The translations under genes and the position numbers were made by a program. This document shows positions 1,681 through 19,392 of a DNA stretch of 38,405 nucleotides, in pieces (the first letter of the stretch is position 1; each line of letters begins with the position of its first letter). The stretch is from an uncultured Cellvibrionales bacterium. Its GTDB lineage: Bacteria > Pseudomonadota > Gammaproteobacteria > Pseudomonadales > GM7GCV1. A model generated the notes under the pieces. It saw only the letters and a program-made list of their open reading frames with translations. It was not told the DNA's origin and did no database searches. The stretch lies in NCBI GenBank assembly GCA_913063225.1, contig CAJXYP010000022.1, forward strand, positions 1 to 38,405, given 5' to 3'.

Positions 1681-3375
1681 ATGCAAATCAAAAGTCTTCA
1701 AACAACGTCGTTATTAATTCTATTTGGTGTATTGCTGGGTTGTTCAGAGCCTTCAGTGGATAGAGACATGCCAGAGCTAGAGATGGCTGCGGCTAATTCG
1801 ATGGCGCCTGAGAGCATGGCAGATTGGGTACTTACCAATGGCCAAATTTTAACCGTCGATGCAGCCTTTAGTAGTGTCGAAGCCATGGCTATTAAAGATG
1901 GTCTAATTCTCGCCACCGGTTCCAACGAAGAAATGATGGAATATGCCGGGCAGGATTCCGAAGTTACTGATCTGGACGGACAAACCATAGTTCCCGGCTT
2001 GATAGACAACCATATGCATTTTGTTCGTGGGACCAAGCACTGGTACCGACTGGTCCGCTGGGATGGTGTTAAATCCAGAGCGGAAGGCCTGGAAATGATC
2101 AAAGAGCGCGCAGCGCAACTTCCAGAAGGCGAATGGTTGATGGTAATGGGTGGCTTTATCTTTGATCAGTTCCAAGATAACTCCGACGTTTTTAGCAGAC
2201 AAGAACTGGATGAAGTATTGCCCGATAGACCGCTCTATATACAGGAAGGCTATGGTCGAGCATTTGTGAATAGCGCTGCCCTTGAAGTGGCAGGTGTTAC
2301 TAATGCAACAGACCACCAGGGTTTGATACGGGATGAACAGGGTGAGCTGACTGGCGAACTGAGAGGCGGTGGTGCCTATGGTCTGGTAGATCGGTATATT
2401 CCAGAACCCTCAGAGGCCACATGGGATAACAGCGTCAAGCTCACTATCGATAGCCTGCTGAGCAAGGGGCTGACGGGGGTCTACGATGTCGGCGGTAATA
2501 CGGTAACGCCTGCCTTTTACGAATCGATTGGCCGCATCGCTGATGCCGACGAACTAAAAATGCGCGTTTATTATTCTTTGAACGAGCAAAACAGCGCCAG
2601 CAGCAGCGCTGAAGAAATCATGATGGAAATGCGTAATAACACGCCCGACATGGAAGGGCTGCGATTTGCACAATTCGGCTACGGTGAAACCGTTTATCGT
2701 CCTATGCGAGCCAATCCCTTTATAGTCTCTGATGAAGACCGGGAGCATTTCAAAAACATCGCAATTACCGCTGTCGAGAATGGTTGGCAGACAAATGAGC
2801 ATTCCAGTCGGGAAGTGAAAATATCAGGCATGCTGGATATTCTGGAGGAGGTTGCCGACAGCCATCCAGCCATGTTGGATATGCGCTTTACCATAGCCCA
2901 CACCAACGGTGTCCAGCCAGTATCTATAGAGCGCGCCAAGGCCTTGGGAATGGTGTTTGCGGTACATAGTTCACGACGACAATCAGGTCAATCGGGTTCC
3001 GAAAATCCCGCCAGCCAACCGCCAGCCCAAGTGATAAATGACATGGGCGGCATCTGGGGATTGGGTTCAGACGCCACGACCGTGGGCAGTCCAAACCCTT
3101 TCCATACCATTGGATGGGTAGTTAGTGGCCGAAACATCGCAGGAAATATAACTCAGCCCTTTACGGTGTCGCGAGAGGATGCACTCACCGCACACACACG
3201 TACCAACGCCTATATTCTATTCCGTGAAGATGATCTAGGCAGTTTGGAAGCAGGTAAGCAAGCTGATTTTGTAGTGCTGGACCGTGATTATATGACCGTG
3301 CCTGAAGAAGAGATTGAAGATCTATTCTCGGTGATGACAGTTGTTGAGGGCGAAGTGGTTTATGCCGCGGACTAA
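1681..3375 (+). CDS. Amidohydrolase family lipoprotein (YtcJ-like)
   Basis: 564 residues. A short hydrophobic N-terminus ends in a lipobox (VLLGC, Cys21), predicting a lipid-anchored exported protein. The rest is a metal-dependent amidohydrolase of the Amidohydro_3/YtcJ type: an N-terminal beta segment (ILTVDAAFSSVEAMAIKDG), the metal-binding HxH motif (NHMHF, H111 and H113), later His sites in NEHSS and IAHTNG, and the GLGSDAT motif carrying the catalytic Asp. The C-terminal QADFVVLDRDYMTVPEEEI is typical. Family members hydrolyse amide or ester bonds, usually in the cytoplasm, so the lipoprotein signal is notable. A GGGGGAAGT stretch before the ATG is the ribosome site. Two DUF6152-like genes follow at short spacing, suggesting one operon. 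Confidence 0.9.
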   Translation: MQIKSLQTTSLLILFGVLLGCSEPSVDRDMPELEMAAANSMAPESMADWVLTNGQILTVDAAFSSVEAMAIKDGLILATGSNEEMMEYAGQDSEVTDLDGQTIVPGLIDNHMHFVRGTKHWYRLVRWDGVKSRAEGLEMIKERAAQLPEGEWLMVMGGFIFDQFQDNSDVFSRQELDEVLPDRPLYIQEGYGRAFVNSAALEVAGVTNATDHQGLIRDEQGELTGELRGGGAYGLVDRYIPEPSEATWDNSVKLTIDSLLSKGLTGVYDVGGNTVTPAFYESIGRIADADELKMRVYYSLNEQNSASSSAEEIMMEMRNNTPDMEGLRFAQFGYGETVYRPMRANPFIVSDEDREHFKNIAITAVENGWQTNEHSSREVKISGMLDILEEVADSHPAMLDMRFTIAHTNGVQPVSIERAKALGMVFAVHSSRRQSGQSGSENPASQPPAQVINDMGGIWGLGSDATTVGSPNPFHTIGWVVSGRNIAGNITQPFTVSREDALTAHTRTNAYILFREDDLGSLEAGKQADFVVLDRDYMTVPEEEIEDLFSVMTVVEGEVVYAAD

Positions 3376-3412
3376 TACTTATTTGCAAATAAAGAGACCT
3401 TTGGGTGTAAAA

Positions 3413-4450
3413 ATGTATAGATGTCTACCTTCTTTCTTAGTGGTTCTGATGTTCTCCTTTGGAGTTCAAGCACACCATTCCATGACGCACTTTGAAGACG
3501 CCGTCACAGAAATGGAGGGAGTGCTGTTAGATATACATTGGCGCAATCCGCATGTGTATTTCTTCCTTGAAACCGAAGAAGCCAACGGTGAGAAAAAAGT
3601 CTGGGAAATGGAAGCGGGCACCATTTATATGATCGGCCGTGCCGGCGTAACTCGTGATCTGTTTACTGTAGGTGAAAGAGTCAGAGTTGCAGGTAACAAA
3701 TCAGCAGTGTTTGAGGGTAAGTTTTGGGTAGAGAACATTCTCACTGAAGAGGGTAGCGAAATATTGGTAGTTCAAAACGGAGCTGCTCGATGGGCCGATG
3801 AGCTTATCGGAGGCAGAAGTAGTTGGACAGGCGAAGCCTTTATTAAAGATGAAGTTGCCAGCAGTGGGAGTGGCATATTTCGTGTCTGGAGCCCGCCGAT
3901 GCGAGGCAGTATAGAGCCAAGGCTAACCGGTGCACCAGCTAATCGGCTTGCGAATATTGCCACTGACGAATCCAAAGCTGCGATAGAAACTTGGGACCCC
4001 TTCGCCTTTGACGACACATGCACACTACCTGGACTGCCGCGTGTAAATCATGGGCCGCATCCTCACCAGTTCAGTCAGGATGGTGAGAATATCCTGCTTA
4101 CTAGTGAAGAATTTTATGTCACCAGAACTATCCATATGAACTCCGGTGTTGATGCTACTGAGCAGCCCTTCAGCCCACTAGGTTACTCGACAGGCCATTG
4201 GGAGAACGACAACACTCTTGTTGTTGAAACCTCGCGCATTAATTTTCCTTACCTGGACTTGGGTGGTTACGGACAGAGCGAACAGGTCAGCATTACCGAA
4301 CGCTATGTTCTAGATGAAGCAGATAATCGCTTGGATTACGAGGTGGTTATTCAGGATCCGATAATGCTCAACGAGCCCTACATCAAGACGGGTGTTTGGA
4401 CGGATATTGGCGAAGCTATTAACGAATCCTACGACTGCGTTCCCAAGTAA
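3413..4450 (+). CDS. DUF6152-like exported protein, copy 1
   Basis: 345 residues from the ATG at 3413. A longer frame begins with TTG at 3341 but lies inside the previous gene and precedes a good signal peptide, so it was rejected. The signal peptide MYRCLPSFLVVLMFSFGVQA gives a VQA cleavage site, so the mature protein would begin His-His-Ser. The next 100 residues match the DUF6152 pattern as I remember it (EMEGVLLDIHWRNPHVYF, then a VWEMEAG segment and VGERVRVAGN). The remaining C-terminal part has a CTLPGLP segment, a TIHM segment and a final Cys near the end (YDCVPK), both Cys being shared with the neighbouring copy. Function is unknown. It is 37 bases after the amidohydrolase and probably co-transcribed with it. 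Confidence 0.85.
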   Translation: MYRCLPSFLVVLMFSFGVQAHHSMTHFEDAVTEMEGVLLDIHWRNPHVYFFLETEEANGEKKVWEMEAGTIYMIGRAGVTRDLFTVGERVRVAGNKSAVFEGKFWVENILTEEGSEILVVQNGAARWADELIGGRSSWTGEAFIKDEVASSGSGIFRVWSPPMRGSIEPRLTGAPANRLANIATDESKAAIETWDPFAFDDTCTLPGLPRVNHGPHPHQFSQDGENILLTSEEFYVTRTIHMNSGVDATEQPFSPLGYSTGHWENDNTLVVETSRINFPYLDLGGYGQSEQVSITERYVLDEADNRLDYEVVIQDPIMLNEPYIKTGVWTDIGEAINESYDCVPK

Positions 4451-4539
4451 CTCGAGAGCACCAGAGCGCCTAAAAGAGCGGATACTAGGACAGATACCGG
4501 AACAAATCCCGAAACAGACAGGGGATCATAGGAGAACAG

Positions 4540-5583
4540 ATGAATATTCGACCCATTTTACAGATTGTCTTACTTCTAACTCTGGCGGTTTCTGCTCAAG
4601 CACATCATTCTCAAACTGAGTTCGATCGAAGCACAATCATTGAAATGGAAGGCGAGATTGTCGCGGCCTACTGGCGCAATCCCCATGTGAATTTCACGCT
4701 CAAAACCTTTGATGAGAATGGCAACGAAGAGATCTGGGAGATGGAAACCGCTGCCTGGAATTATCTCTCGCGGATAGGCATTCCCAAAGATGCTATTGAG
4801 GTCGGAGATATCGTCAGAGTTGCCGTATTTCAATCTACCAAAAGACCCCGCCAACTTTCGTTGAATAATGTGCTGTTAGAAAGCGGCATTGAAATTGTTT
4901 TTAACGGCGACGGTTTCAGTGGCAATGGACAGTCTCGTTGGTCCGACAGATTTTATGGCATTGAAGGTGGAGAGGCGGCTATTCAGCCCATCGCAGCGGC
5001 TTCAACTGCAGACTTGGGGCTATTCCAGGTTTGGGCAATTGCCGGCGGTAGACGGGTTCCTTTGGACGGGGATCTACCTTTGACAGAACAAGCAAGAGCG
5101 GCTCAAGCTGCTTGGGACCCCATAACGCAAGACCCACTATTGCGATGTATGTCTCCCGGCATGCCTCCCACTATGGGCAACCCTTATCCAATGCAGTTTA
5201 GTGAGCAAGGCGGCAATATTATTTTGGCACTCGAGGAATTCGACAATGTTCGAACTATTCACATGTCGGCTGATGCTGAACCTGGTGAACCGAGCTCATT
5301 GGGGCATTCTATGGGACGCTGGCAGGACGGTAGCCTGTGGGTGGAAACCGATAACATCAACTACCCCTACTTCAATCGGGTGGGTGTCGCGCAAAGTACA
5401 GAAGTAACTACCTCAGAGCGATTTACGCTTAGTGACGATGGTCTGCGACTCGACTATGAACTGAGTATCACCGACCCCAATACCTTCACAGAGCCGGTGA
5501 CCTGGGGCACTTATTATGTTGCCGGGAGCGGTGAAGTAATTAAACCCTACGAGTGCACTGTGGAGCGGTACGTGCCGCGTTAG
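4540..5583 (+). CDS. DUF6152-like exported protein, copy 2
   Basis: 347 residues and a tandem paralogue of the gene just upstream. The ATG is preceded by AGGAGA at good spacing. The signal peptide ends SAQA and the mature protein would start His-His-Ser, as in copy 1. Shared blocks include MEGEI, YWRNPHVNF, EIWEMET, VGDIVRVAVF, MQFSEQGGNIIL, VRTIHMS and a conserved pair of Cys (LLRCMSPG and the late YECTVE). No catalytic motif is recognised. The coding end overlaps the stop of the opposite-strand YceI gene by four bases, so the genes are convergent with no room for a terminator. Likely periplasmic; function unknown. Confidence 0.87.
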   Translation: MNIRPILQIVLLLTLAVSAQAHHSQTEFDRSTIIEMEGEIVAAYWRNPHVNFTLKTFDENGNEEIWEMETAAWNYLSRIGIPKDAIEVGDIVRVAVFQSTKRPRQLSLNNVLLESGIEIVFNGDGFSGNGQSRWSDRFYGIEGGEAAIQPIAAASTADLGLFQVWAIAGGRRVPLDGDLPLTEQARAAQAAWDPITQDPLLRCMSPGMPPTMGNPYPMQFSEQGGNIILALEEFDNVRTIHMSADAEPGEPSSLGHSMGRWQDGSLWVETDNINYPYFNRVGVAQSTEVTTSERFTLSDDGLRLDYELSITDPNTFTEPVTWGTYYVAGSGEVIKPYECTVERYVPR

Positions 5584-6173
5584 TCTTCCTGAGGCGCTCT
5601 AGCTTCAACAGAGATCATCAATCTAACTTCGGGGAAAAACCCCCGGTCAAGGTCTGCGTCTAAACCAAAATCACTGCGATCTATGGTTGCAGATGCATCC
5701 GCGCCGCAGGTCTCAGCGCCAGTCCGGTAATGGGGCTGGCATTTGAATCTATTGATATTCAGGTTTACCGGCAGGCTAACGCCATGCAGAGTCAGCATAC
5801 CTTCCACCGCTGTGGGTGAGCCGTTTTCGAAGTTGACTAAGCGGCCTTCATAGGTGGCGGTTGGTATGTTTTCTACATCCAAAATATGACCGATCGCTTC
5901 AGCGTTCATGCCTTCATGCCCAAAATCGATACTGCCCATTTCCATGCGGATATCAACAGTTCCGGTGCGAGCCGCTCTATCCATAACAATACTGCCGGAA
6001 GTTGAATTTACTTTGCCGCGCCAAATCGACAATCCGCCAAAGTGGTCAGCTTCAAAAGAAGGGTAGGTATGGGATGAGTCAATCTCATAGGTAATGGGTT
6101 CAGCGACAGCTAAGCCGGAAAAGCAAATAGATAGACTCAGTAGAACTACAGACTTCAGATATGTTGGATACAT
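5580..6173 (-). CDS. YceI family periplasmic protein
   Basis: 197 residues from the ATG at 6173, which has a GGGGG ribosome site five bases upstream. A TTG at 6185 would add four residues and is less likely. The signal peptide ends GLAVA, followed by EPITYEIDSSHTYPSFEADH, the usual YceI start. GGLSIWRGKV, the SIDFGHEGMN segment, the IPTATYEG segment and LTLHGVSLPVNLNI complete the lipocalin-like barrel. YceI proteins bind long isoprenoid or fatty lipids in the periplasm. Two Cys (RFKCQPH, ETCGAD) may form a disulfide and occur in the same place in the broken paralogue at 10887-11489. The ligand is unknown. Confidence 0.92.
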   Translation of the reverse strand: MYPTYLKSVVLLSLSICFSGLAVAEPITYEIDSSHTYPSFEADHFGGLSIWRGKVNSTSGSIVMDRAARTGTVDIRMEMGSIDFGHEGMNAEAIGHILDVENIPTATYEGRLVNFENGSPTAVEGMLTLHGVSLPVNLNINRFKCQPHYRTGAETCGADASATIDRSDFGLDADLDRGFFPEVRLMISVEARAPQED

Positions 6174-6264
6174 TTTGGCCCCCAAAAGGTCTATATGTTA
6201 CAGGAATATTATGCGGGATTTGCCCCTGGAATCTATTTAAGAATTATTATCCTAAACAGAGCCG

Positions 6265-7470
6265 TTATTTTGTAGTGCGAAGCACTACAAACTTATCGTT
6301 AGATGCGAGGGTTTCGCAATTACCAAAAAGATCTTTCAGGCGTCTGTAATAACCTAGATGCAGGTTCGCTACGATCTGCAGCTGACCATTGGTTCTTAGT
6401 ACGCGTCTCGACTCTTTAAACATCTCTAGGGCAATGCCGGGATTCCTGGCGCCAGCGTCATGAAAGGGTGGGTTGTTCAGGATTAAATCTTGAGATTCAT
6501 CCGCTATTCCATCTAGGCAATGAGTTGCGAGAGCTTGATATTGATCGGTAGGGTCAGTTGAGAGAGAAAGTCTAATGCCTTCCTTCACAGATTCGATAGC
6601 TGCGGAGGACTCGTCAACAAAGGTGACTTTCGAGTCCGGAGATCGCTTGGCTGCGGCTATGCCTAGGGCTCCAGTTCCGCAGCCCAGATCTAGAATGTCC
6701 ACTTCAGACTCGGAAACTTGCATTGCCTTAAGCAAAAACTGCGTACCGTAGTCGAGGCTTCCGTGGCAAAAAACTCCTGGATAGGAGGCAAGGGTTAAGT
6801 CATCAGGGGTTTTACTTATATGAGCGCTGACGGTAAATACTTTCGCTGGCACTGGCCCTATCTCGGCCTTGTAAGCCTCAGCGGAGGCAAAAATAAGTCG
6901 GGCTTTCTTCTTCGCCAGAGAGCTGGTGGTCTGGCCTATATATTTTTCAAAAAGTGCCAAAGTGGAATTGTGTACAGTTTTAACCATGCCTGCACCGATA
7001 ATCTGAGTATCGGCGGTAACCCGCGTTTGAATTCGACTTAGGCTGTCTTCAAGCTGCGCTAGGCTCTTTGGGATTTTGACAATAACTAGATCGTAGGTTG
7101 ATTCCTCGGCTAGCTCAGAGAACCCGATGCTGCTTATGAGGTTAATATTTTTTGTATCAATCTCATTCTCAGCGGCATTTGCAGCGATTGCTGAATGAGC
7201 GACGGCTGAATCTGATACAACGGTTATTTTAGAATTTTGTGAGCTTTGGTCTTTACTTAAACTCAGACTCAAGCCGAGACTCATTGCCCCAAAGGCGTCC
7301 CCAAGCACTAGAATTCTATTTCTTTGCTGGTCGGCAGGCGCATCTTCGAGATGTGATAAAACGTACTCATCTGCCGCGTCCCATGCGCGCAACTTTTGCT
7401 GCGGATCTATCGGGAATCTATAGAGGTTAAGAACCCCACTGGGTGTTTCGAAGTTAATTTCTGGTGGCAT
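6265..7470 (-). CDS. rlmG: 23S rRNA (guanine-N2) methyltransferase RlmG
   Basis: 401 residues from the ATG at 7470. RlmG modifies G1835 of 23S rRNA in the cytoplasm. The protein has the two-domain layout of RlmG/RsmC: a degenerate N-terminal domain and a C-terminal catalytic Rossmann domain. Visible motifs are the SAM-binding DLGCGTGALG (about residues 261-270) and the NPPF motif (333-336) for exocyclic amine methylation. The end, LGYYRRLKDLFGNC followed by KFVVLRTTK, matches RlmG rather than RsmC, as do RFP and AWDAADEY near the start. A TTG at 7488 in the same frame is an alternative start, but the ATG gives the usual distance to RFP. No strong ribosome site is visible for either. Confidence 0.9.
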   Translation of the reverse strand: MPPEINFETPSGVLNLYRFPIDPQQKLRAWDAADEYVLSHLEDAPADQQRNRILVLGDAFGAMSLGLSLSLSKDQSSQNSKITVVSDSAVAHSAIAANAAENEIDTKNINLISSIGFSELAEESTYDLVIVKIPKSLAQLEDSLSRIQTRVTADTQIIGAGMVKTVHNSTLALFEKYIGQTTSSLAKKKARLIFASAEAYKAEIGPVPAKVFTVSAHISKTPDDLTLASYPGVFCHGSLDYGTQFLLKAMQVSESEVDILDLGCGTGALGIAAAKRSPDSKVTFVDESSAAIESVKEGIRLSLSTDPTDQYQALATHCLDGIADESQDLILNNPPFHDAGARNPGIALEMFKESRRVLRTNGQLQIVANLHLGYYRRLKDLFGNCETLASNDKFVVLRTTK

Positions 7471-7488
7471 TTGAATTACTGATGGCAA

Positions 7489-7510
7489 GACTCTCGGCGG
7501 CCCGAGAGTC
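7489..7510. other. 9-bp perfect hairpin just upstream of rlmG
   Basis: GACTCTCGG and CCGAGAGTC pair perfectly around a 4-base loop. The hairpin sits 19 bases before the rlmG ATG on the transcribed strand. No T-run follows closely on either strand, so it is a poor terminator; it could be a leader hairpin or an operator. A second 7-bp inverted repeat lies at 7593-7613, just past the stop of the small gene at 7617. Confidence 0.45.
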
Positions 7511-7616
7511 TATAGGATTCAGCAAAGAGAATCTCTAGCTGGTGTTCACCCCAGTATTAATTGAAGAATCAAATAGAACGCCTATTCAAGAACTGAATCA
7601 AGAATGGATTCAGAAA

Positions 7617-7721
7617 CTATCCTATAAACATAGAAACCGCGATTAGCAGAACGGCAAAAACTATGTCCGCCAAAACCACTAGTCCAACATTTTGTAGTGC
7701 AAGTCTATCTTCTGTAACCAT
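7617..7721 (-). CDS. 34-residue single-pass membrane protein
   Basis: This short frame begins at an ATG at 7721 with a strong AGGAG ribosome site seven bases upstream and ends TAG at 7617. The protein begins MVTEDRLALQN, then has one uninterrupted hydrophobic segment (VGLVVLADIVFAVLLIAVS) and ends MFIG. That fits a single transmembrane helix with a short charged N-terminus. No family is recognised. It lies between rlmG and the TonB receptor, on the rlmG strand, with a small hairpin (7593-7613) after its stop. The ribosome site and the clean hydrophobic block support it; the short length keeps confidence moderate. Confidence 0.55.
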   Translation of the reverse strand: MVTEDRLALQNVGLVVLADIVFAVLLIAVSMFIG

Positions 7722-8061
7722 GAAACTTCTCCTAAATAAGCAATCAATTAAGCATCTTCGACGGAGCTATATATGCGCCGAAACCTGTTCGATTTTGATG
7801 ATTATTAGGTTGGCAACATTGCAACTGAGCATGGTTGACTTAGGTCAATTTGGAATCGATGGCCTTAGTGATTAGAGGGTATCTCGCCGAGGCCTGTAGG
7901 TATAAATATCGACAATATTGCCACTTATTACCGATTAGTAATAGAAAGTGTCAATTTAATCCACATTATTTCAATAGATGTATGGTGTGGCGCGGCGGTA
8001 AAAAAAATATTATAAACAACGGCCGTACTTAGGTTTAATTAGATTCAAAGGGGAAGAAAAT
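7722..8061. other. Divergent intergenic region upstream of the TonB receptor
   Basis: No gene is supported here. The stretch is AT-rich and must hold the promoter of the receptor at 8062. A short inverted repeat, TATTAC (7926-7931) with GTAATA (7938-7943), could be an operator. No Fur-like site and no convincing -35/-10 pair was found. Confidence 0.5.
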
Positions 8062-10758
8062 ATGAATTATATCAATAATATAGTGGTAGGTTTTCTGGGG
8101 GCGGCTCTTGCGCTGATAAGCCCAGTCGGAGCAATCGCTCAAAATGGTACTGGCGCAACGATTGAAGAAGTGCTGGTGACTGGACGAAAACGTGAAGAAA
8201 GTTTGACGGATGTACCGGTATCAATCTCGGTATTTAACGCAACACTATTAGCCGACGCAGGCATCGACCAACAAGATGACCTATTCGCGGCAACTCCAGG
8301 TTTGGATTACGGCAACTGGAACGGCACGCGAACCGATAACAATCCAGGCGTGCGCGGCGTTCAATCTGAACTGCGCGCTTCAAACCAACAGAAGGTGGCT
8401 TCTTTTATCGATGGTATGCCGATGAACGGCAACACCGGTACGCTGTCATTTTCTGGCATTGACGCGGTGGAAGTATATAGAGGGCCGCAAAGCGCAGCCT
8501 TCGGTCGATCTACCTTTGCGGGCGCGGTCAACTATGTAACTTCCGATGCTGCAGAAGAATTTGAAGGTAAAGTTAGCCTAAAAGGAACTGATCTAGGTGG
8601 TCAGGAACTTGGACTATTGATTACAGGTCCACTTGGCGACAACCTTGGCTATCGCATTTCCTATGTGACCGGCGAAGATAGCGGTCCTGATGAATGGCAA
8701 ACCACTGAGGGAATCGATCAGAGCAACCAAGATACTGAACGATTTTCTGCCAAACTAAATTTTGAATTTACCGATACTGCATATGGTGAGATTACATTTA
8801 GCCGTCTCGACGCATTAGATATGCCGGGCGCTTCTTGGATCGTTGATCCATCTACCTGTGGACCCGGTTCTGGCGTATTGCTAAACAATATGGGTTCTAG
8901 ACCTGAATTGCCTGCTGGCGAATGGGATTGTGAAGTTGAAGCACCGACTGGTGGCTTACCTCGAAATACTGGATTGTACGACCAATTTATCGGACAGTAT
9001 GCCGCCAATAACGCCGCCTATACCGCTGCTTTTGGTATGGCTGATGCCGATATGAGTGGTGATGTGTCTCTTGATGAATTCCTAGCGCAAACAGATAACT
9101 CTGGAGCTACCTATGGGCAACTGCTTCAGGCCATGAGCGTGGTACCAGGATGGAAATCAGATGTGGATCGCATTCAGGGTGAAATGAACTTTGAAGTCGG
9201 TGACAACCTTCTGCAATTTATGGGCATGACGGTCAATGAAACGTGGCATCGATGGAATGATAATGACGCTGGCAACAGTCTGGCTGTATTTGGTATGGGC
9301 ATGCTTGGCCCAAATACTATGAGTATGGCGGCTGTCGGTAGCATTGAAGAGCTCTATGGGGAAGTTCGTTGGATATCTCCAGAAGATCAGCGCTTACGCT
9401 ATACCCTTAGTGCCACTTACTACGAATATGATAACAACCTTCAGACCTCAAACGCCCTTGGCGCACGAGAATTAGGTTTAACTATTGCATCTGGTCTAAA
9501 TGCAGGGAACCCAGTCAATCCACAAGATGGTATTACTATCTCTGAGCTTGCCACGAACACGGGTATTGGTTTAAACATGAACTATGACCTAACCGATCGC
9601 ACAACGCTTTCTCTTGAAGGTCGTTATCAGGTTGATGAGATCTGCGGTAATGACGCAGCGGGTGCAAATGTTGAAGCATGTTCAGAAACCAAATCATTCG
9701 CGCCACGTATCGGTATAAATACCACCATTAGCGATAGCATGAGCATTTATGCACAGTATTCCATCGGTTCTAACCCAGCCGGCGTAAATATTGCCTATCA
9801 AGATCCTGGCAATATCCAGGCTCTTGGGATTGCGAATGGTTCTATTGCAGTACCAGTGGGTGTTGGTGCCGTAAACGAAGGTGTTCTATACAACGGCGTA
9901 GGTGGTAATCCGCCCCCAGTTGTAGACTATGATGAGAATACTTTCCCCACCTTTGACGAAGAAACACTTACTAACATTGAAGTGGGCGTTAAGGGTAACT
10001 TTGCTGATCGCAGAGGTGCATATACTGCAGCCGCATACTTTATGATTTATGAAGATATTATCGGTGCAGAAAACCTCGATTGGAATGATGATGAAGTGGG
10101 TGCTGGTGGCTGGAACGAAGGCAACTGGAGTCAATTCGAAGGTGAGCGCACTTGGATCAATCAGGGCGATGCAGAAATGTATGGTGTTGAGCTAACCCTA
10201 GACTATGCGTTAGACGAAACTTGGCAGGTAGGTGGATACGTTACCCTAAGTGCAGCGGACTATACGGATTACTGCTCTATTCAGGCACCACGGTATCGGC
10301 TTGCTGTTCCAGGCCCTTTCTTCTTCGACTTGTTAACTCCAGCAGCTGATGGCGTATTAAGCACTTGTGCCGTTGCTGACGGGAACCAATTGTCGCAGCA
10401 CTCGCCCTTTACGGCTAACTTCAATGTAAGTGCGCAACTGCCAGAAACTATGGGTTTCAATGGTAATCTTAGATTGGACATTCGTCACAAAGGATCGCAC
10501 TTTGAAGATCACATGAACCTGCTAGAGCGTGCTGCGGTAACTACTATGAATCTCTCGGCTAATTTGAGATCTGAAAGCTGGAACGTTAGAGCTTTTGTTA
10601 ACAACCTGACGGACAATGATGAGCCAGCACGTGTTACGGGAGGCCGAGCTTTTTCAGACAACGCCAACCCTACGGTAGCAGCTGGTCAAGTTCAGTCTTG
10701 GGCAATAATTCCTACTCGACCACGAGAAATTGGTTTGCAGGTTGAGTACAACTTCTAA
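8062..10758 (+). CDS. TonB-dependent outer-membrane receptor with EF-hand-like loop
   Basis: 898 residues. The ATG follows an AAGGGGAAG ribosome site. A signal peptide ends at GAIA (about residue 26). Next come the IEEVLVTGRKREESL segment and DVPVSISVF, typical of the large receptor class that takes up carbohydrates, lipids or aromatics. The plug domain shows VRGVQSEL and VEVYRGPQSAAFGRSTFAGAVNY. The beta-barrel follows and ends in the usual aromatic residue (VEYNF). Residues 328-339 (DADMSGDVSLDE) fit a calcium-binding EF-hand loop, unusual for this family. An intrinsic terminator follows directly. The substrate is unknown; neighbouring exported hydrolases may process it. Confidence 0.93.
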   Translation: MNYINNIVVGFLGAALALISPVGAIAQNGTGATIEEVLVTGRKREESLTDVPVSISVFNATLLADAGIDQQDDLFAATPGLDYGNWNGTRTDNNPGVRGVQSELRASNQQKVASFIDGMPMNGNTGTLSFSGIDAVEVYRGPQSAAFGRSTFAGAVNYVTSDAAEEFEGKVSLKGTDLGGQELGLLITGPLGDNLGYRISYVTGEDSGPDEWQTTEGIDQSNQDTERFSAKLNFEFTDTAYGEITFSRLDALDMPGASWIVDPSTCGPGSGVLLNNMGSRPELPAGEWDCEVEAPTGGLPRNTGLYDQFIGQYAANNAAYTAAFGMADADMSGDVSLDEFLAQTDNSGATYGQLLQAMSVVPGWKSDVDRIQGEMNFEVGDNLLQFMGMTVNETWHRWNDNDAGNSLAVFGMGMLGPNTMSMAAVGSIEELYGEVRWISPEDQRLRYTLSATYYEYDNNLQTSNALGARELGLTIASGLNAGNPVNPQDGITISELATNTGIGLNMNYDLTDRTTLSLEGRYQVDEICGNDAAGANVEACSETKSFAPRIGINTTISDSMSIYAQYSIGSNPAGVNIAYQDPGNIQALGIANGSIAVPVGVGAVNEGVLYNGVGGNPPPVVDYDENTFPTFDEETLTNIEVGVKGNFADRRGAYTAAAYFMIYEDIIGAENLDWNDDEVGAGGWNEGNWSQFEGERTWINQGDAEMYGVELTLDYALDETWQVGGYVTLSAADYTDYCSIQAPRYRLAVPGPFFFDLLTPAADGVLSTCAVADGNQLSQHSPFTANFNVSAQLPETMGFNGNLRLDIRHKGSHFEDHMNLLERAAVTTMNLSANLRSESWNVRAFVNNLTDNDEPARVTGGRAFSDNANPTVAAGQVQSWAIIPTRPREIGLQVEYNF

Positions 10759-10779
10759 TAAATAGTAGAAATAATCTTA

Positions 10780-10809
10780 AAATGCCCGAGTTTGCTCGGG
10801 CATTTTTTT
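10780..10809 (+). terminator. Intrinsic terminator of the TonB receptor
   Basis: AATGCCCGAG pairs with CTCGGGCATT around the loop TTTG, followed by a run of seven T. It lies 22 bases after the receptor stop. Confidence 0.92.
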
Positions 10810-10886
10810 GCCTGTAATTTGAGAGTCTTAATCTGAGATGTATATCGGCGATCTGCCCGATTGGGCATATCGCCTAATTCACGCGG

Positions 10887-11489
10887 TTATTCGGGTGCTG
10901 GCACCACAGCTTCAACAGAGATAAGCAAATTTACAAAGGGCAGAAAAACACCATCTAAGCCATAGGTCAGTCCGCAGGTCGAACGGTCAAAATTGGCAGC
11001 GGCATCGGCACCGCAAACTTCTCGGCCATGGCGAAAATGGGGTTTGCACAGCAATCTGCTGATGGTCAAATCCAGTTCGTTGGTGACGCCGTGCATAGTT
11101 AAATTGCCCCTCACCATAGTCGGATTACCGTCTACAAAATCTGAAAGTTCGCCGGTGTAGGTTGCGGTAGGAAATTACTCGGCAAAACCACATGATCTTT
11201 GGCGCTATTAGTCATAGCCTCAAAACCGAAGTCGATAGAATGCATATCCATTTCCGTATTTACCGAACCGGTCTCTGCTTCTCTATCCATGACTATTGTG
11301 CCCTGAGTAGCCGTAATCTTGCCGCGCCAGATCGAAAAGTCCGCCTTGATGATCGCCCTCAAAAGCAGGGTAAGAATGAGCTGGATCGATGACGTAGGTT
11401 ACTGGCTCAGCAAATGCCACGCCCGCCACAAAGAAACGTATAAGTAATAGCAGAGTTGGTTTCAGATTAACAAATCTTAGCGTAGCCAC
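10887..11489 (-). pseudogene. YceI family gene broken by two frameshifts
   Basis: Three minus-strand frames together spell one complete YceI protein. The first (from 11489) gives a signal peptide ending GVAFA and the start EPVTYVIDPAHSYPAF. The reading then moves to SIWRGKITATQGTIVMDR, which needs one extra base at the A run 11335-11338 to be removed. It moves again to PTATYTGELSDF, which needs one base added near 11170-11171. The last part carries LTMHGVTNELDLTI and CGADAAANFDRS. Overall it is a paralogue of the intact YceI at 5580-6173, with the same two Cys. Both breaks fall in short homopolymers, so real decay and sequencing error are both possible. As it stands, no full product can be made. 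Confidence 0.85.
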
Positions 11490-11573
11490 CTAAGTGAGTG
11501 GTAGCGATTGCTAGGCACTTGTGGCAGATTAAGATTGGCTGTGCCAAGTGACTAAAAATAGGGGGTGATAGTG

Positions 11574-12698
11574 ATGTTGATTGATCGAATTAGGTGGGCC
11601 GCTTTAGTGACATTTGTTTTTCTTGCCGGGTGCGGTTCAGTCGGGGGCAATATCATCACCGGTGAGGGCATTCCCAACCCTAATCCTGTAGCGGCCAACC
11701 AATGGGGTGAATTGCCCGCTGGTCGCGTCTGGGGACATACGGCCGGTATTGATATCGACCCTACCGATGGACATATATGGGCCTACGAGCGCTGCAGTGC
11801 TGGTGGCGGTAGCCGCGCTGGAGAAGGGCCGGTCAACTGTGACACGGTTTCAGTGGACCCTATTTTCAAATTTGATCGTCATACCGGCGAAGTCTTAGCT
11901 AATTTTGGCGCGGGTTTATTTATGACGCCCCACGGTATTCATGTCGACCATGATGGCAACGTCTGGGTTACGGACTTTGTTAACAACGCCGATGGCACTA
12001 AAGGCCAGCAGGTACATAAGTTTAGCCCCGCTGGCGAATTATTGATGAGCCTGGGTACACCCGGTCAGACCGGAAATGATGGAGCGTATTTCTATCAACC
12101 AAACGACGTTATCGTCGCCGCAGACGGTAGCATTTTTGTATCAGACGGCCACGGCGGGCAGGGTATGACAACGGTTGCTGCTTTAGAAGCCGGCAGAGAA
12201 GCGGGCCGGACGGGCCGTATTATGAAGTTCGCTGCTGACGGCACGTTTATCAAGCAGTGGGGGCAGTTAGGCACGGCTCACGGCGAGTTTCGCACTCCCC
12301 ATGCTATGGAAATAGACTCTCAAGGGCGTCTCTGGGTAGCGGATCGCGGCAACCATCGATTAGAAATATTTGACCTTGAAGGCAACTATCTGGAGTCTCG
12401 TTATAGCTACGGTCGCATCAGCGGGATATTCATCACCGACGACGATATGGTGTACGCCATTGATTCTGAATCCGGCCCTATCAACCACATTAATTGGATA
12501 GCCGGTGTTCGCATTGGCCCCTTAAACGAAGACCGAATAGTTGGCTTTATACCCGGTTATCCGGTTGAGTCTCGTGGTTATCAGTCCACCGCTGGCGAAG
12601 GCGTGGCTGTGGATGCGGACGGCACAGTTTTCGTTGCGGAAGGGCCAAGTTCCATACCCACTGCTAAAGGCTCATTTACTAGATATAGCGCAGACTAA
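11574..12698 (+). CDS. NHL-repeat beta-propeller lipoprotein
   Basis: 374 residues from the ATG at 11574, preceded by GGGGG at eight bases; a GTG at 11565 is an in-frame alternative. The N-terminus has a lipobox (FLAGC, Cys20), so the product is probably anchored to a membrane facing the periplasm or outside. Repeated blades are seen: GIDIDPTDGHIWAYE, PHGIHVDHDGNVWVTD, PNDVIVAADGSIFVSD, PHAMEIDSQGRLWVADRGN and VAVDADGTVFVAEG. This matches six-bladed NHL propellers, which include peptidyl-hydroxyglycine amidating lyase-like proteins; the enzyme activity is not certain. It is followed by two metallo-beta-lactamase-fold genes on the same strand and probably belongs with them. Confidence 0.85.
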   Translation: MLIDRIRWAALVTFVFLAGCGSVGGNIITGEGIPNPNPVAANQWGELPAGRVWGHTAGIDIDPTDGHIWAYERCSAGGGSRAGEGPVNCDTVSVDPIFKFDRHTGEVLANFGAGLFMTPHGIHVDHDGNVWVTDFVNNADGTKGQQVHKFSPAGELLMSLGTPGQTGNDGAYFYQPNDVIVAADGSIFVSDGHGGQGMTTVAALEAGREAGRTGRIMKFAADGTFIKQWGQLGTAHGEFRTPHAMEIDSQGRLWVADRGNHRLEIFDLEGNYLESRYSYGRISGIFITDDDMVYAIDSESGPINHINWIAGVRIGPLNEDRIVGFIPGYPVESRGYQSTAGEGVAVDADGTVFVAEGPSSIPTAKGSFTRYSAD

Positions 12699-12776
12699 CT
12701 GCATTCAATATCTGCGGCAGGGCAGAATTTTTTGTGTTGGCCTTAGTCTTTGAATTGGTTAAGAAAAGGGTGTTCT

Positions 12777-13673
12777 ATGAAAATATTAGTTCTTTTAGCA
12801 ATGCTTGTTTCGGCACTAGCCACATCGGTTTCTGCGCAGGTACAACCCAATATGGGGACTCAAAACTGGGATGATTTTGTAGTCGCTAGCCCGGAACATG
12901 TGGCGGGTAATATCTACAAAGTGGTCGGTGGCGTTATTGTGAACATGGCATTTTCCGTTGGTGAAGATGGCATTATTTTGGTGGACAGTAACTTCCAGGA
13001 TTTAACCGGTCAGATCATTGCCGCAATACGCGAAGTATCAGATAAGCCGATCCGGTTTTTGATCGACACACATTCCCACGCCGATCACGCCGATGGCAAT
13101 GTTAGTTTTGGTGAGACCGGAACTATTATCGTTGCGCATGACGCAGTGCGAGCGCAACTTGCAAATCCTCCCCGTGGCGAAGCTGCTGCAGCGCTGGCGC
13201 TGCCTGTTGTCACCTTTCCCGAGCAGGTGAATTTTCATTTTAATGGTGAGGAAGTGGAAGCTTTCCATGTTGCTGCCGGGCATACGGACGGTGACATTAT
13301 GGTTTATTTTAAGGGCTCCGACGTCATCCATATGGGTGACGTTTTTGTAGGCCATTATCCAATTATAGATACCAGCAGAGACGGTCATATACTGGGCGTG
13401 ATTGAGTCCCTTAACGTAGCAATAGAAAAGGTTAGCGACAATACCAAGATCATTCCGGGCCACGGTGACGTTGCTGTTCGAGAAGATGTAATCGAATTTC
13501 GAGATATGTTGTTGGGTATCTATGGCAGTGTGAATAGTCTAGTTGCGGAAGGAAAATCCCTTCAGCAAGTAATCGCTGCAAGACCAACGTCCAACTATGA
13601 TGCGAAGTGGGCCGGTCCGCAGGGATCCAGAGGTATTATCTCTGCTGCTTATAATGCCGCTCGGGGCGAGTAG
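12777..13673 (+). CDS. Secreted metallo-beta-lactamase-fold hydrolase, full zinc site
   Basis: 298 residues from the ATG at 12777, with AAGGG upstream; the longer frame from 12750 lacks a ribosome site and precedes the signal peptide. The signal peptide ends SVSA. Zinc-binding residues are complete: HSHADH (H99, H101, D103, H104), GHTDGD (H169), GDVF (D188) and PGHG (H229). These proteins hydrolyse esters, thioesters, lactones or beta-lactams; this one more likely acts on a metabolite than on antibiotics, but the sequence does not settle it. A second MBL gene begins 42 bases downstream, so the two are probably one unit. Confidence 0.88.
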   Translation: MKILVLLAMLVSALATSVSAQVQPNMGTQNWDDFVVASPEHVAGNIYKVVGGVIVNMAFSVGEDGIILVDSNFQDLTGQIIAAIREVSDKPIRFLIDTHSHADHADGNVSFGETGTIIVAHDAVRAQLANPPRGEAAAALALPVVTFPEQVNFHFNGEEVEAFHVAAGHTDGDIMVYFKGSDVIHMGDVFVGHYPIIDTSRDGHILGVIESLNVAIEKVSDNTKIIPGHGDVAVREDVIEFRDMLLGIYGSVNSLVAEGKSLQQVIAARPTSNYDAKWAGPQGSRGIISAAYNAARGE

Positions 13674-13715
13674 GAGTTACGGACCCTATATTTTAAGTTT
13701 AGAGGAGCAAGATTA

Positions 13716-14573
13716 ATGTACCTCCGAATCATCAGTACAACCTGTATTGCGCTCGCAACCGCGTTTTGGTTTCAACTCGCCTCAGCGCAGCCAGAACCCC
13801 GGCTAAGCGGCGGCAATGACTTGCGCACCATGGCGCGTGACCCTTTTCAGGTATTCGACAATCTCTACTTTGTCGGTATCGGCGAGGTGGGTAGTTATGT
13901 AATAGAAACTAGCGATGGTTTGATACTGCTCGATACCCTCTGGGATAACCCGGGCTACACCGAATATCTACTTGGCAACATACGCGAGGTCGGTCTCTAC
14001 CCTATGGATATCAAGTACGTCATTATCCTTCAGGGTCACCGCGATCATTACGGCGGCGCACCGGCTCTGCAAAAGATAATCGACGCCCGGTTCGGCACGG
14101 CAGAAGAAGATAGAAAATTGATGGTCGAAGACTTCGGCGAGTGGGCGCCCCGAATCGATTTTATTATTGAAGAAGGTGACAGCCTGATCTTAGGCGATAC
14201 AAGGCTGGACTTTGAAAATACTCCCGGACATACGCCGGGTACTACATCTATCCGTTTTTCAGTATTTGATAACGGCACTGAGCATCTGGCCTATTTGCAT
14301 GGCGGCCCCCTGCTTCGCACCAAAGACCCTGGAGCAGGACAGGTTTTTATTGAAGACCTGTGGCGTATTAAGCAAATTCCCGGGATAGAAGTGCAGATTG
14401 CCAATCACTTTGATATCGCCGCACGCGGTGCTCCCGATTTGTTTGAGCGAGCGGAATTGCTGGCAAGCCGACAGCCCGGTGAGCCACACCCCTGGGTTGA
14501 TCCCGGACACTTTCAGCGCTGGTTAACCGAGCTAGCCGAGGATACGCGGGCGTATTTGGCAGAGCCAGATTAG
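13716..14573 (+). CDS. Secreted metallo-beta-lactamase-fold hydrolase with Gln in the HxHxDH motif
   Basis: 285 residues; AGGAG lies just upstream of the ATG. The signal peptide ends QLASA. The protein resembles subclass B3 in layout: a loop ILQGHRDHYGG, then TPGHTPGTTS (H172) and IANHFD (H231). The first metal motif reads Gln106-Gly-His108-Arg-Asp110-His111, so the usual first His is Gln, as known for GOB-type B3 enzymes, which keep activity with one or two zinc ions. The rest of the metal site is present. The true substrate is unknown; B3-like housekeeping relatives are common. It ends 22 bases before a sulfatase remnant. Confidence 0.85.
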   Translation: MYLRIISTTCIALATAFWFQLASAQPEPRLSGGNDLRTMARDPFQVFDNLYFVGIGEVGSYVIETSDGLILLDTLWDNPGYTEYLLGNIREVGLYPMDIKYVIILQGHRDHYGGAPALQKIIDARFGTAEEDRKLMVEDFGEWAPRIDFIIEEGDSLILGDTRLDFENTPGHTPGTTSIRFSVFDNGTEHLAYLHGGPLLRTKDPGAGQVFIEDLWRIKQIPGIEVQIANHFDIAARGAPDLFERAELLASRQPGEPHPWVDPGHFQRWLTELAEDTRAYLAEPD

Positions 14574-17121: not shown

Positions 17122-19392
17122 CTAAAACCCATACTCAAATCCCAGGGCAGCCGTACGTGCTTTGTTAGGTCTTGCACCGTAAGGTTGTCGGCCAAGAATA
17201 TCCTCTTCTGCCGTCATATTTTCTAGCCGGGCAAATAGTCGAAGCTGCTCGTTCATATAGTAATGAGCTGACAGATCAAAGCTGAGAGTGCTATCAGTCC
17301 TCTCGAATACTTCACAGGATGCTCGAACGCAAACTTCGTCAACATAGCTAGTACTCAGGTAGGCAGCCCAGCCCTGATTCTCCATACCAAGCGTCAGGCT
17401 GTATTGTTGTTCGGGGATGTAAGGAAGTGGATCTCCTTTGGATACGTCGCCGAAGAAATCCGTATCTGCGATGTCCGTATCAAATTGACCGTCGATATAA
17501 GTATAACTAAAGGAGACAGGAAATGACGTGGTCCCAGCAGAAGACAAGTGAGCGGCTAGATCCGTTGAATATAGCAGTTCGATACCCTGTACCGTTGCAG
17601 CCTCGCCGTTAAATGCGTCGCCAATAGTGCAGCCGGTGCCAGACGAAGCCGTGCATTCGCCTATCAAGTTTGTATAGTCGCTTAGAAAATAAATCACTTC
17701 AGCCCGAGTTGTATCGTCAGAATATCTAGCGCCCAGCTCGTAGTTCGTGGCTTGCTCTTCCTTAGCGCCTGGTGAATTTGAAGGTGCGGTAAAACCTTTG
17801 TGTGCACCGGCAATTAAGGCCAGTTGATCGTTGGCGGCGTACTGAATACCAAAGCCGGGCAGAACTACTTGGATATCGTTACTGCGTTCACTGCGAAGAT
17901 TAGAGTCTGCGCGACTTGCCGGGTCTGTGGTACTTCCTGTGCGAGTTTCCCAGCGTGTGCGCTGCTGACTAATATCTTCAAATCTAAGCCCCGGAGATAC
18001 AACCCAGTTACCAAATGAGATCTTGTCGTAGATATGCAGAGCCAATGCATCCGCTTGTTGAAGTCGGTTGCCGGCGTTGCCGAGTAGACCTAGATCGTTC
18101 AGCACAAGTTCACCGGCAAGTTGTTGGAATGTGTCGTTTTGTTGCAGACGATCCTCTTCATCATAATGCAGTCGCAATCCCAACCGGACTTCATGAGATA
18201 CATTGCCAGCCACAGTTGACCAGTCAACACTCAATTGCACGCCGCGTGAGACATATTCTCTAGCGTTGGACCTAAGTTGAATACTACCGACGGCTGTATC
18301 CGAGCTTCCGTCAAGGATCTGCTGCAAGTCTGCGGCTGTGAGCGCGCCGATACTGTCGCTAGTATTCACAGCGCTAACGACATTCGACCAACTGGTGCCA
18401 GAAAAATCTTGCGCCGAGGTACTGCCATCCAAATCAAACTTTTCGGTTTTGTACCAGTTACGCTGGTGGTCGTTGTTATAAGCCGTAGCAGTTATGGACA
18501 GATTGTCTGAATAGGCAAAGGAATATCTGAGGATCTGTTGCTCGTGAAGAGTACTAATATTGTCCAGCTCAGAAACGCCGTAACGGCGGAATGCGTCATC
18601 GCGAAAATCAGCATCCGTAAGCCCCAAATAGCTTTGCTCAGAATCTTGATCCGCGTATTGAAGCTTTAATTCAAAACTGTGTCGTGAATCTTGTGATGTA
18701 TATGCCAACTTGGCAGTGAAGTCTTCAATCGCCAGACCGGTATGTGCATTACTGCGGTCAATGTCTTGGAAGCCGTCTGAATTCCATTGGTGCGTCTCAA
18801 CTAAAAATCCAAAGCCGTTCTCGAACTGGCCTCCGTAAGTGCCGTGAAGGCGAAAGGTATTATCCTGGCCACCTTCAAAAAGAATATTGCCGCTACTCGT
18901 ACTCGAAGGTATTGGTGTCGAGATCATATTCATGGCGCCACCAATAGTATACGGCCCCTGGGTTATTGCTGCCGGGCCTTTGAGTATTTCAACTGCATTC
19001 ATTCTGCCCACGGTCGGGAAGTAATATGCCGATGGCGCGGAATAGGGTGCCGGAGATATAAGCACATTGTCTTCTAGTAAGGTGATTCGGCCACTACGTT
19101 CAGTGGATACGCCTCGAATGCTGATGTTGGGTCGTAATCCAAAGCCATCTTCAACTTGTAAAGACACACCAGGTACCTGCCGTAAGATTCTTTGAATATC
19201 TGAATACTCGAAGGTCTTCAACTGAGCTTGCCCAAGATACTGAGCCGCTCCGGGAATCTGTTGTCCGATAAGTTGCTCGCCAACAATGGTAGTTTCTTCG
19301 ATAATTAGATTGCCTGCCTCATCGGCCATTAAAAATGATCCGAACAACAGAGTGATGCATCCGCAGATGCTTTTTATGACAGTGTTTTTCAT
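17122..19392 (-). CDS. Fur-regulated TonB-dependent receptor, FecA-like
   Basis: 756 residues. The signal peptide ends FLMA, followed by LIIEETTIVGEQLIGQ as TonB-interacting start. The plug domain has IRGVSTERSGRITLLEDNV and VEILKGPAAITQGPYTIGGAMNM; the barrel ends in LGFEYGF with a terminal Phe. The sequence resembles FecA-type iron-chelate receptors. A Fur-type operator and promoter are directly upstream, which supports an iron role. No siderophore synthesis or ABC permease genes are nearby, so this is a stand-alone receptor, perhaps for a foreign siderophore or ferric citrate. The ATG has an AAGG site about nine bases upstream. Confidence 0.92.
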   Translation of the reverse strand: MKNTVIKSICGCITLLFGSFLMADEAGNLIIEETTIVGEQLIGQQIPGAAQYLGQAQLKTFEYSDIQRILRQVPGVSLQVEDGFGLRPNISIRGVSTERSGRITLLEDNVLISPAPYSAPSAYYFPTVGRMNAVEILKGPAAITQGPYTIGGAMNMISTPIPSSTSSGNILFEGGQDNTFRLHGTYGGQFENGFGFLVETHQWNSDGFQDIDRSNAHTGLAIEDFTAKLAYTSQDSRHSFELKLQYADQDSEQSYLGLTDADFRDDAFRRYGVSELDNISTLHEQQILRYSFAYSDNLSITATAYNNDHQRNWYKTEKFDLDGSTSAQDFSGTSWSNVVSAVNTSDSIGALTAADLQQILDGSSDTAVGSIQLRSNAREYVSRGVQLSVDWSTVAGNVSHEVRLGLRLHYDEEDRLQQNDTFQQLAGELVLNDLGLLGNAGNRLQQADALALHIYDKISFGNWVVSPGLRFEDISQQRTRWETRTGSTTDPASRADSNLRSERSNDIQVVLPGFGIQYAANDQLALIAGAHKGFTAPSNSPGAKEEQATNYELGARYSDDTTRAEVIYFLSDYTNLIGECTASSGTGCTIGDAFNGEAATVQGIELLYSTDLAAHLSSAGTTSFPVSFSYTYIDGQFDTDIADTDFFGDVSKGDPLPYIPEQQYSLTLGMENQGWAAYLSTSYVDEVCVRASCEVFERTDSTLSFDLSAHYYMNEQLRLFARLENMTAEEDILGRQPYGARPNKARTAALGFEYGF

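Follow-up and report, generated by a model that had tools for sequence, protein, structure and literature searches.

Positions 1–38,405 of the contig CAJXYP010000022.1, from an uncultured Cellvibrionales bacterium (NCBI GenBank assembly GCA_913063225.1), are the DNA studied, and this whole stretch is referred to here as the window. Its positions 1681–14573 hold the gene of an amidohydrolase lipoprotein, a pair of DUF6152 genes (paralogues a and b), genes for a YceI protein and an RlmG-like methyltransferase, a TonB receptor gene, a broken YceI copy, and genes for an NHL lipoprotein and two MBL-fold proteins, MBL1 and MBL2 (Table 1). A preliminary description, made from the sequence, had listed these genes and read them as an exported module of uptake and hydrolysis; matches to Pfam and NCBIfam bear out the list, positions included. 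Our main subject is the DUF6152 pair, whose members score 54 (a) and 64.4 bits (b) against PF19649 (gathering cut-off, 27). DUF6152 is an existing Pfam name to which no function is attached.

The window pair accounts for 2 of the 59 family matches in this 2.26-Mb genome. Of these, 57 are above cut-off, and two genes are each split into two matches, giving about 57 genes. No match was found in 14 control genomes. A search of 18 genomes for relatives returned the 59 of the home genome, 58 and 21 in two members of the same genus (G002 and G001), 2 and 1 in a sister genus, and none in the other 13. In a sample of 398 genomes from the phylum, the home genome included, 42 had any DUF6152 and 356 had none; at most 12 candidates were scored per genome, a scale on which the home genome reaches 12, and the highest count elsewhere was 8. 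Eight genomes were reached through relatives of the amidohydrolase, five with DUF6152 and three without. Large sets were counted in G415 (58; apparently G002 again), G416 (47 in 1.6 Mb), G417 (100 in 2.6 Mb) and G419, titled Bryobacterales, Acidobacteria (51 in 6.7 Mb). The largest was in G420, titled Rhodospirillaceae, with at least 150 matches in 3.3 Mb, a lower bound since 150 of 159 candidates were scored. Around G420, 12 of 19 genomes (G420 and G416 included) carried from 4 to at least 150 copies and 7 carried none. These data show very large expansions of DUF6152 in several lineages, while most genomes of the phylum sample have no copy and most of the rest have one. Several copies are broken by in-frame stops or split frames (L046, L048, L050, L035), as expected from the birth and death of copies, although assembly errors are possible. 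A family that takes up dozens of genes in a genome as small as 2.26 Mb, and that reaches at least 150 matches in one of 3.3 Mb, must matter to the life of these organisms. DUF6152 was not named in the main texts of the open-access PMC papers searched, and our searches of that literature found no description of the expansion or of the double histidine and domain pairing described next.

In 54 of the 59 home-genome matches, a signal-peptide-like stretch ends directly before two consecutive histidines (HH), the preceding residue being Ala in 47 and Ser, Gly or Thr in 7. This pattern suggests that cleavage falls exactly before HH, which would place a histidine at the mature N-terminus. Among the five exceptions, three are fragments that lack the N-terminus, one has RH, and one (C6:35616) has neither HH nor a second motif, NPH, that lies further along the domain. 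The joint loss of HH and the NPH histidine in C6:35616 fits a single site, though this is a single case. Using hidden Markov models (HMMs) of the N and C domains built from the home-genome copies, we examined stretches from other genomes, where 50 of 50 N-domain open reading frames (ORFs) carried both HH and the NPH histidine, one of them as NSH. We also aligned 99 N domains, 50 from the home genome and 49 from elsewhere, all selected for starting with HH; the set excludes a 73-residue row from another genome and home-genome rows shorter than 95 residues. Residues H1, H2, P27, H28 and G68 are invariant in all 99, at a mean column identity of 27%; for H1 and H2 the figure results from the selection, and the unselected figures are the 54/59 and 50/50 given above. 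Separate alignments of the home-genome copies held 37 long paralogues and 11 of the 17 short HH-bearing ones (four stubs of broken genes and two copies of 151 amino acids being omitted). When the window pair was compared with its counterparts at L052, differences per nonsynonymous site (pN) were 0.127 for paralogue a and 0.244 for paralogue b, and those per synonymous site (pS) were 0.766 and 0.81, respectively, with synonymous sites near saturation. Constraint on both genes is thus visible in the sequence comparison.

The mature paralogue b, modelled with AlphaFold2 together with 37 paralogues, gave a predicted local distance difference test score (pLDDT) of 87 and a predicted template modelling score (pTM) of 0.80 (model m07db7a976c98). 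Because the VIA-align search with the whole model listed almost only calycins, the N domain was predicted separately (m7f9438f9f1b4; pLDDT 92, with residues 1–10 averaging 87). VIA-align, for which Z scores of 9–10 are only modestly above the stated typical best of 7–8 for models without a clear match, paired the N domain with PriB (4apv; Z 9.1, root-mean-square deviation (rmsd) 2.5, 81 residues aligned) and with SSBs (Z 8–9), and paired C-domain residues 138–310 with FABP7 (8ivl; Z 10.1, rmsd 2.5 Å, 113 residues, 9% identity). The best Foldseek E value for the N domain was 1.6e-3. With the whole model, Foldseek returned CRABP-II (E about 1e-3, probability 1.00), and its top rows were lysyl-tRNA synthetases with poor TM-scores. 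The models thus predict an OB fold, with the five-stranded barrel that defines it, for the N domain and a FABP-like calycin, an up-and-down β barrel, for the C domain. A GxW motif on the first strand is a mark of the calycin superfamily; a Trp stands at a GxW-like site in 34 of the 37 long paralogues, with Gly two positions before it in 25 of the 37 (Q in paralogue b). The C domain also has a conserved Cys pair (36/37 and 35/37). No meaningful sequence relatives were found in the PDB (best E 0.12 for the N domain and 0.25), and in the proteins scanned the C domain lies outside every Pfam model. Scanned against Pfam with an E limit of 0.1, the window pair matched only PF19649, with no catalytic, LPMO, CopC or CusF family, and NCBIfam gave one marginal match, in one member, across the 37 long paralogues.

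The two predicted domains travel together. In the home genome, the C-domain HMM also hits 39 of the 59 ORFs that contain an N domain, and for another 5 a C domain is encoded by its own ORF, on the same strand and no more than 700 bp away. This becomes 6 with the pair at L037, whose ORFs overlap and which the rule, measured from domain to domain, misses. For G419 and G420 we read 20 short stretches chosen among the matches listed. Of the 13 N domains read in the acidobacterium G419 (which has 51 matches), 10 have a separate C-domain ORF as neighbour and 2 are fused to a C domain. The 24 read in G420 comprise 13 that are fused, 6 with such a neighbour and 5 with neither, 2 of the last lying close to where a stretch ends. 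Many of the separate C-domain ORFs start, as judged by eye, with a signal-peptide-like stretch of their own. Because the OB and calycin domains are fused in one lineage and encoded by neighbouring genes in another, a classic sign of joint function, they probably belong together functionally. Two further DUF6152 proteins (L022:10567–12114 and L039:8666–10243) have a C-terminal extension of about 180–200 residues; the one that was scanned showed a weak similarity to DUF1554 (E 0.045, below cut-off).

Genes beside DUF6152 are diverse. The 80 immediate neighbours match 127 Pfam families, the commonest being aldo/keto reductases (4), Amidohydro_3 (3) and TonB (3). A single universal partner gene was sought in this set, and none emerged except the C domain itself. 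Aldo/keto reductases lie within 1.5 kb of a DUF6152 gene in four of nine cases in the home genome (0.71 expected, P = 0.004) and in four of eight in G002 (P = 0.002, approximate binomial). The two genomes share a genus, and these enrichments are not independent. Of three such reductases compared with the Pfam Tat model, one passes the cut-off, one falls below it and one has no match. Ricin-type lectin matches occur twice among the 80 neighbours. The protein encoded at 1–468 of the window (minus strand) resembles a ricin-type lectin by eye and, with proteins at L020, L021, L033 and L038, forms a cluster of five related proteins among the stretches read.

A second recurrent neighbour is the amidohydrolase. 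Its relatives were found by contig scan, and the taxon names of their loci are the submitters'. Orthologues of 76–84% identity occur at L052 (Porticoccaceae), L053 (TMED78) and L054 (Arenicellaceae), each with a DUF6152 gene within about 1 kb. At L052, the amidohydrolase gene heads a same-strand block with three DUF6152 genes directly after it; the first of these shares 75% identity with paralogue a, and the third shares 62% with paralogue b. At L053 and L054, other DUF6152 paralogues lie 0.6–0.8 kb upstream on the same strand. More distant orthologues are present at L055 (Flavobacteriaceae, 61%), in a genome with no DUF6152 match, and at L058 (Rhodospirillaceae, 59%), where the gene is cut by the contig end. 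Altogether, the link is seen in three of the five loci from genomes that carry DUF6152. Amidohydro_3 is modestly enriched near DUF6152 in the home genome: of its 10 matches, 4 are no more than 1.5 kb from a DUF6152 gene, where random placement would give 0.84 (P = 0.007, post hoc). In G002 the figure is 1 of 7 and enrichment is not clear. Adjacency in all genomes that have both genes was also considered and is ruled out by L057 and L058. The lipobox of the amidohydrolase, read by eye, had been called especially odd in the preliminary description. It is an ordinary feature of this orthologue group, since the site reads VAC, LGC and FSC in three orthologues, and in a fourth, partly masked, it ends in AC.

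Coordinates of the locus and of related features are collected in Table 1. The broken YceI copy is 69% identical to the intact gene at the DNA level across 131 bases, and the genome has five YceI matches, the broken copy counted. Short gaps suggest that the NHL gene likely heads an NHL-MBL-MBL transcription unit. The NCBIfam model nearest to the exported MBL1 is SoxH_rel_PQQ_2, a quinoprotein relay metallohydrolase model (97.5 bits, under the cut-off of 280). For MBL2, assignment as a subclass B3 β-lactamase fails at the curated NCBIfam cut-offs (CAR_gen_B3, 135.6 bits versus 500; bla_subclass_B3, 107.3 versus 240). Outside the 13-kb locus, the window encodes a second TonB-receptor-like protein at 17122–19392, and the contig G000:C21 carries three paralogues (53–60%) of the TonB receptor (L097, L098).

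Table 1. Features of the 13-kb locus, in window coordinates, and of related loci elsewhere
Feature	Position	Strand	Basis or remark
Amidohydro_3 lipoprotein	1681..3375	+	Pfam 242 bits
DUF6152 paralogue a	3413..4450	+	Signal peptide, predicted mature start HH at 3473, N and C domains
DUF6152 paralogue b	4540..5583	+	Signal peptide, predicted mature start HH at 4603
Predicted OB domain of paralogue b with predicted N-terminal His-His	4603..4902	+	Model pLDDT 92
His28 of NPH motif in paralogue b, candidate third metal ligand	4684..4686	+	99/99 in N-domain alignment
Predicted calycin (FABP-like) C domain of paralogue b, residues 137–310	5011..5532	+	VIA-align
YceI protein, probably a bystander	5580..6185	-	Pfam 97 bits
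RlmG-like methyltransferase, bystander	6265..7488	-	PRK15001 242 bits, cut-off 468
TonB receptor, unlinked to other window genes in the relatives read	8062..10758	+	Homologue neighbourhoods
Broken YceI copy	about 10890..11470	-	Pieces in different frames with stops
NHL lipoprotein	11565..12698	+	Pfam NHL
Exported MBL-fold protein 1 (MBL1)	12774..13673	+	Lactamase_B
Exported MBL-fold protein 2 (MBL2), subclass B3-like	13716..14573	+	Nearest NCBIfam model CAR_gen_B3
HHSHGNY-type subgroup of DUF6152	L017:6575-7685, L043:5881-6944, L027:5272-6189		
Aldo/keto reductases beside DUF6152	L017, L027, L033, L043		

The preliminary description had held that nearly every gene of the 13-kb set is exported or resides in the outer membrane, and by a crude heuristic for signal peptides and lipoboxes this is so: eight of the nine intact genes look exported. 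We compared this density with that in 37 stretches around DUF6152 genes of the home genome, where 143 of 391 other genes (37%) scored as exported, a fraction that differs in kind from a genome-wide rate given how the stretches were picked. Runs of nine genes with at least seven exported numbered 19 of 164 and were spread over 7 of the 37 stretches, this one included; the threshold was seven, whereas the locus reaches eight. The export density of the locus is therefore not exceptional, as export-rich runs are common around DUF6152 genes. Relatives of the TonB, NHL, MBL1 and MBL2 proteins were then traced in eight or nine genomes each, and their surroundings were read in G002, G416 and G417. In G417, which has long contigs, the nearest relatives lie on four different contigs: TonB (54%) on C9, NHL (81%) on C20, MBL1 (about 60%, split over two frames) on C6 and MBL2 (69%) on C23. 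A tblastn search (E 1e-6) of the 12–17 kb read around each detected no other window gene, the exceptions being DUF6152 and a weak NHL homologue next to TonB. In G002, the orthologues of TonB (84%; at C61, adjoining a 60% paralogue), NHL (74%; at C145, followed by a different amidohydrolase) and MBL2 (83%) are on separate contigs, although scattering there is weaker evidence because these contigs are only 3.8–13 kb long. Neither the G417:C20 nor the G002:C145 NHL orthologue has MBL neighbours of the window type. The sole hint of linkage comes from G416, where about 6 kb separates an MBL2 orthologue (63%) from an MBL1 homologue (38%).

The claim that the 13 kb form one receptor-coupled module for uptake and hydrolysis of a single substrate can draw on the exported look of the genes, on the close spacing of NHL, MBL1 and MBL2 on one strand, on the G416 pair, and on the amidohydrolase-DUF6152 adjacency that recurs at L052–L054. 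The last of these is the part of the proposal that stands. As a whole the one-module reading fails because the relatives of TonB, NHL, MBL1 and MBL2 lie apart in G417 and, on short contigs, in G002, unclustered with each other or with the amidohydrolase; the different amidohydrolase after NHL in G002 and the commonness of export-rich runs argue the same way, and we regard such a module as very improbable. Failure of these homologues to cluster in the genomes examined is also the outcome that the preliminary description had named as refuting a module, and its own alternative is the one to keep: the 13-kb set is mostly a chance cluster of exported genes. Its suggestion of hydrolysis outside the cytoplasm survives in part, in that exported enzymes beside DUF6152 fit it, but no participation of the receptor, NHL or MBL genes was seen.

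What, then, might the DUF6152 proteins do? Considering conservation, predicted folds and precedent together, the likeliest answer is that they are diversified, exported, metal-loaded proteins that bind small molecules, some of them perhaps enzymes. Specifically, we propose that they are exported metalloproteins with an N-terminal histidine and a pocket for a small molecule, and that the family has diversified to suit many ligands; to this tentative reading we assign a probability of about 0.45. The N-terminal histidine would chelate a transition metal through its amine and ring, and H1, H2 and H28 would form a putative three-histidine site, with copper or nickel most likely. The calycin domain would hold a small, probably hydrophobic molecule, and each paralogue would serve a different one, either by binding it or through metal-dependent chemistry. 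Exported enzymes, such as Tat-type aldo/keto reductases and lipoprotein amidohydrolases, would act on the molecule afterwards. If the calycin domains do bind different molecules, these genomes carry a big unread repertoire of extracytoplasmic small-molecule recognition or chemistry. A bolder version would make the DUF6152-calycin proteins a new class of extracytoplasmic metalloenzymes, in which an N-terminal bis-His metal site on the OB domain oxidises small molecules held by the calycin domain, in 50–150 versions in some marine and soil bacteria. We consider this version rather improbable; if true, it would describe a combinatorial system for oxidising small molecules outside the cytoplasm, a bacterial counterpart of a large cytochrome P450 repertoire.

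Several observations weigh against the proposal of diversified metalloproteins. The metal and the ligand are themselves inferred, and cleavage before HH was judged by eye from an AxA-like pattern at positions –3 and –1. Of the 61 DUF6152-set ORFs, among them fragments and stand-alone C-domain ORFs, the crude heuristic scores only 51 as exported. Fifteen of the 59 home-genome N-domain hits, fragments included, have no C domain within 700 bp (14 when L037 is allowed), and a subgroup that begins HHSHGNY (in other places HHSHSNY or HHSHANF) has as its neighbour or fusion partner a different domain, about 200 residues long and with no Pfam match above cut-off. Since the genes beside DUF6152 mostly have no relation to one another, a catabolic role is weakly supported, and the enrichments among them were post hoc tests. 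The amidohydrolase link is also missing at two loci: at L058 no DUF6152 gene lies in the 10 kb on the readable side, though the genome has at least 150, and at L057, where the relative is 35% identical and the genome has 51 matches, the nearest element is only a C domain, 5.5 kb off. Finally, a role in sequestration or transport has been proposed for the N-terminal histidine of DUF6702 and the anglerases (PMC12537917).

Three other accounts of DUF6152 deserve weighing against these same data. Calycins are typically binding proteins, and the family might consist of binding proteins only, that is, periplasmic or surface carriers or sensors in which HH and NPH serve structure or the docking of a partner. 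The calycin rows are mostly FABPs, several of them ligand-bound (one is the luciferase NanoLuc), large divergent sets of paralogues suit ligand discrimination, and no catalytic family was matched. Invariance of H1, H2 and H28 at 27% mean identity seems, however, beyond structural need, and the N-domain hits without a calycin nearby are also unexplained by pure binding; we judge this account unlikely. CusF is a periplasmic OB-fold metal protein, a metallochaperone, and DUF6152 could similarly sequester or deliver metal, its expansion serving metal supply. Precedents among N-terminal-histidine proteins (DUF4198, DUF6702 and the anglerases; PMC12537917) favour such a role, but metal buffering does not account for a set of divergent copies that runs from dozens to 150, the majority with a calycin domain, and the 25 most frequent of the 127 neighbour families include none for metal transport, which makes this role rather improbable. 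The invariant HH might instead be a signal for sorting or processing during secretion. It sits directly at the predicted cleavage site, and the adjoining residues vary; yet the invariance extends equally to H28, a position well away from the N-terminus, and NPH is also missing from the sole full-length home-genome copy with neither HH nor RH (C6:35616). A pure secretion signal is thus very unlikely.

DUF6152 can be compared with several known systems. CusF and CopC are not among the 50 VIA-align rows shown for the N domain, which does not exclude them. An N-terminal histidine plus an internal histidine is the defining ligand set of the histidine brace of LPMO and CopC (PMC10952591, PMC7529816), and the putative DUF6152 site would resemble it; DUF6152 differs in its predicted OB fold and matches none of these families in Pfam. 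Compared with SSB and PriB, the DUF6152 N domain is exported, has an HH extension before strand 1 and has NPH at the predicted start of strand 2. Compared with FABP and CRABP, the C domain is exported, is joined or coupled to an OB domain, has the conserved Cys pair and 9% identity, and has no Pfam family. DUF6152 also resembles proteins described in the signal-strapping paper (PMC12537917), the main text of which contains none of the terms DUF6152, OB-fold and calycin. DUF4198, DUF6702, Ang-1 and Ang-2 are exported bacterial proteins whose signal peptide is cut before a conserved histidine, an arrangement predicted for DUF6152 from the residue pattern ahead of HH. DUF4198 binds Ni through its N-terminal His and a nearby His; it has a second conserved histidine near the N-terminus (His18, compared with H28 in DUF6152), and TonB receptors are reported nearby. 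In DUF6152, H2 and H28, present in 99 of 99 HH-selected copies, would be the additional conserved potential ligands. The fold of DUF4198 is a 13-strand β-sandwich, whereas an OB fold is predicted for DUF6152, and DUF6152 stands apart from all these N-terminal-histidine proteins in its two consecutive histidines, its calycin partner and its dozens to at least 150 copies per expanded genome. If the HH and NPH residues do bind metal, DUF6152 would constitute a large new group of N-terminal-histidine metalloproteins.

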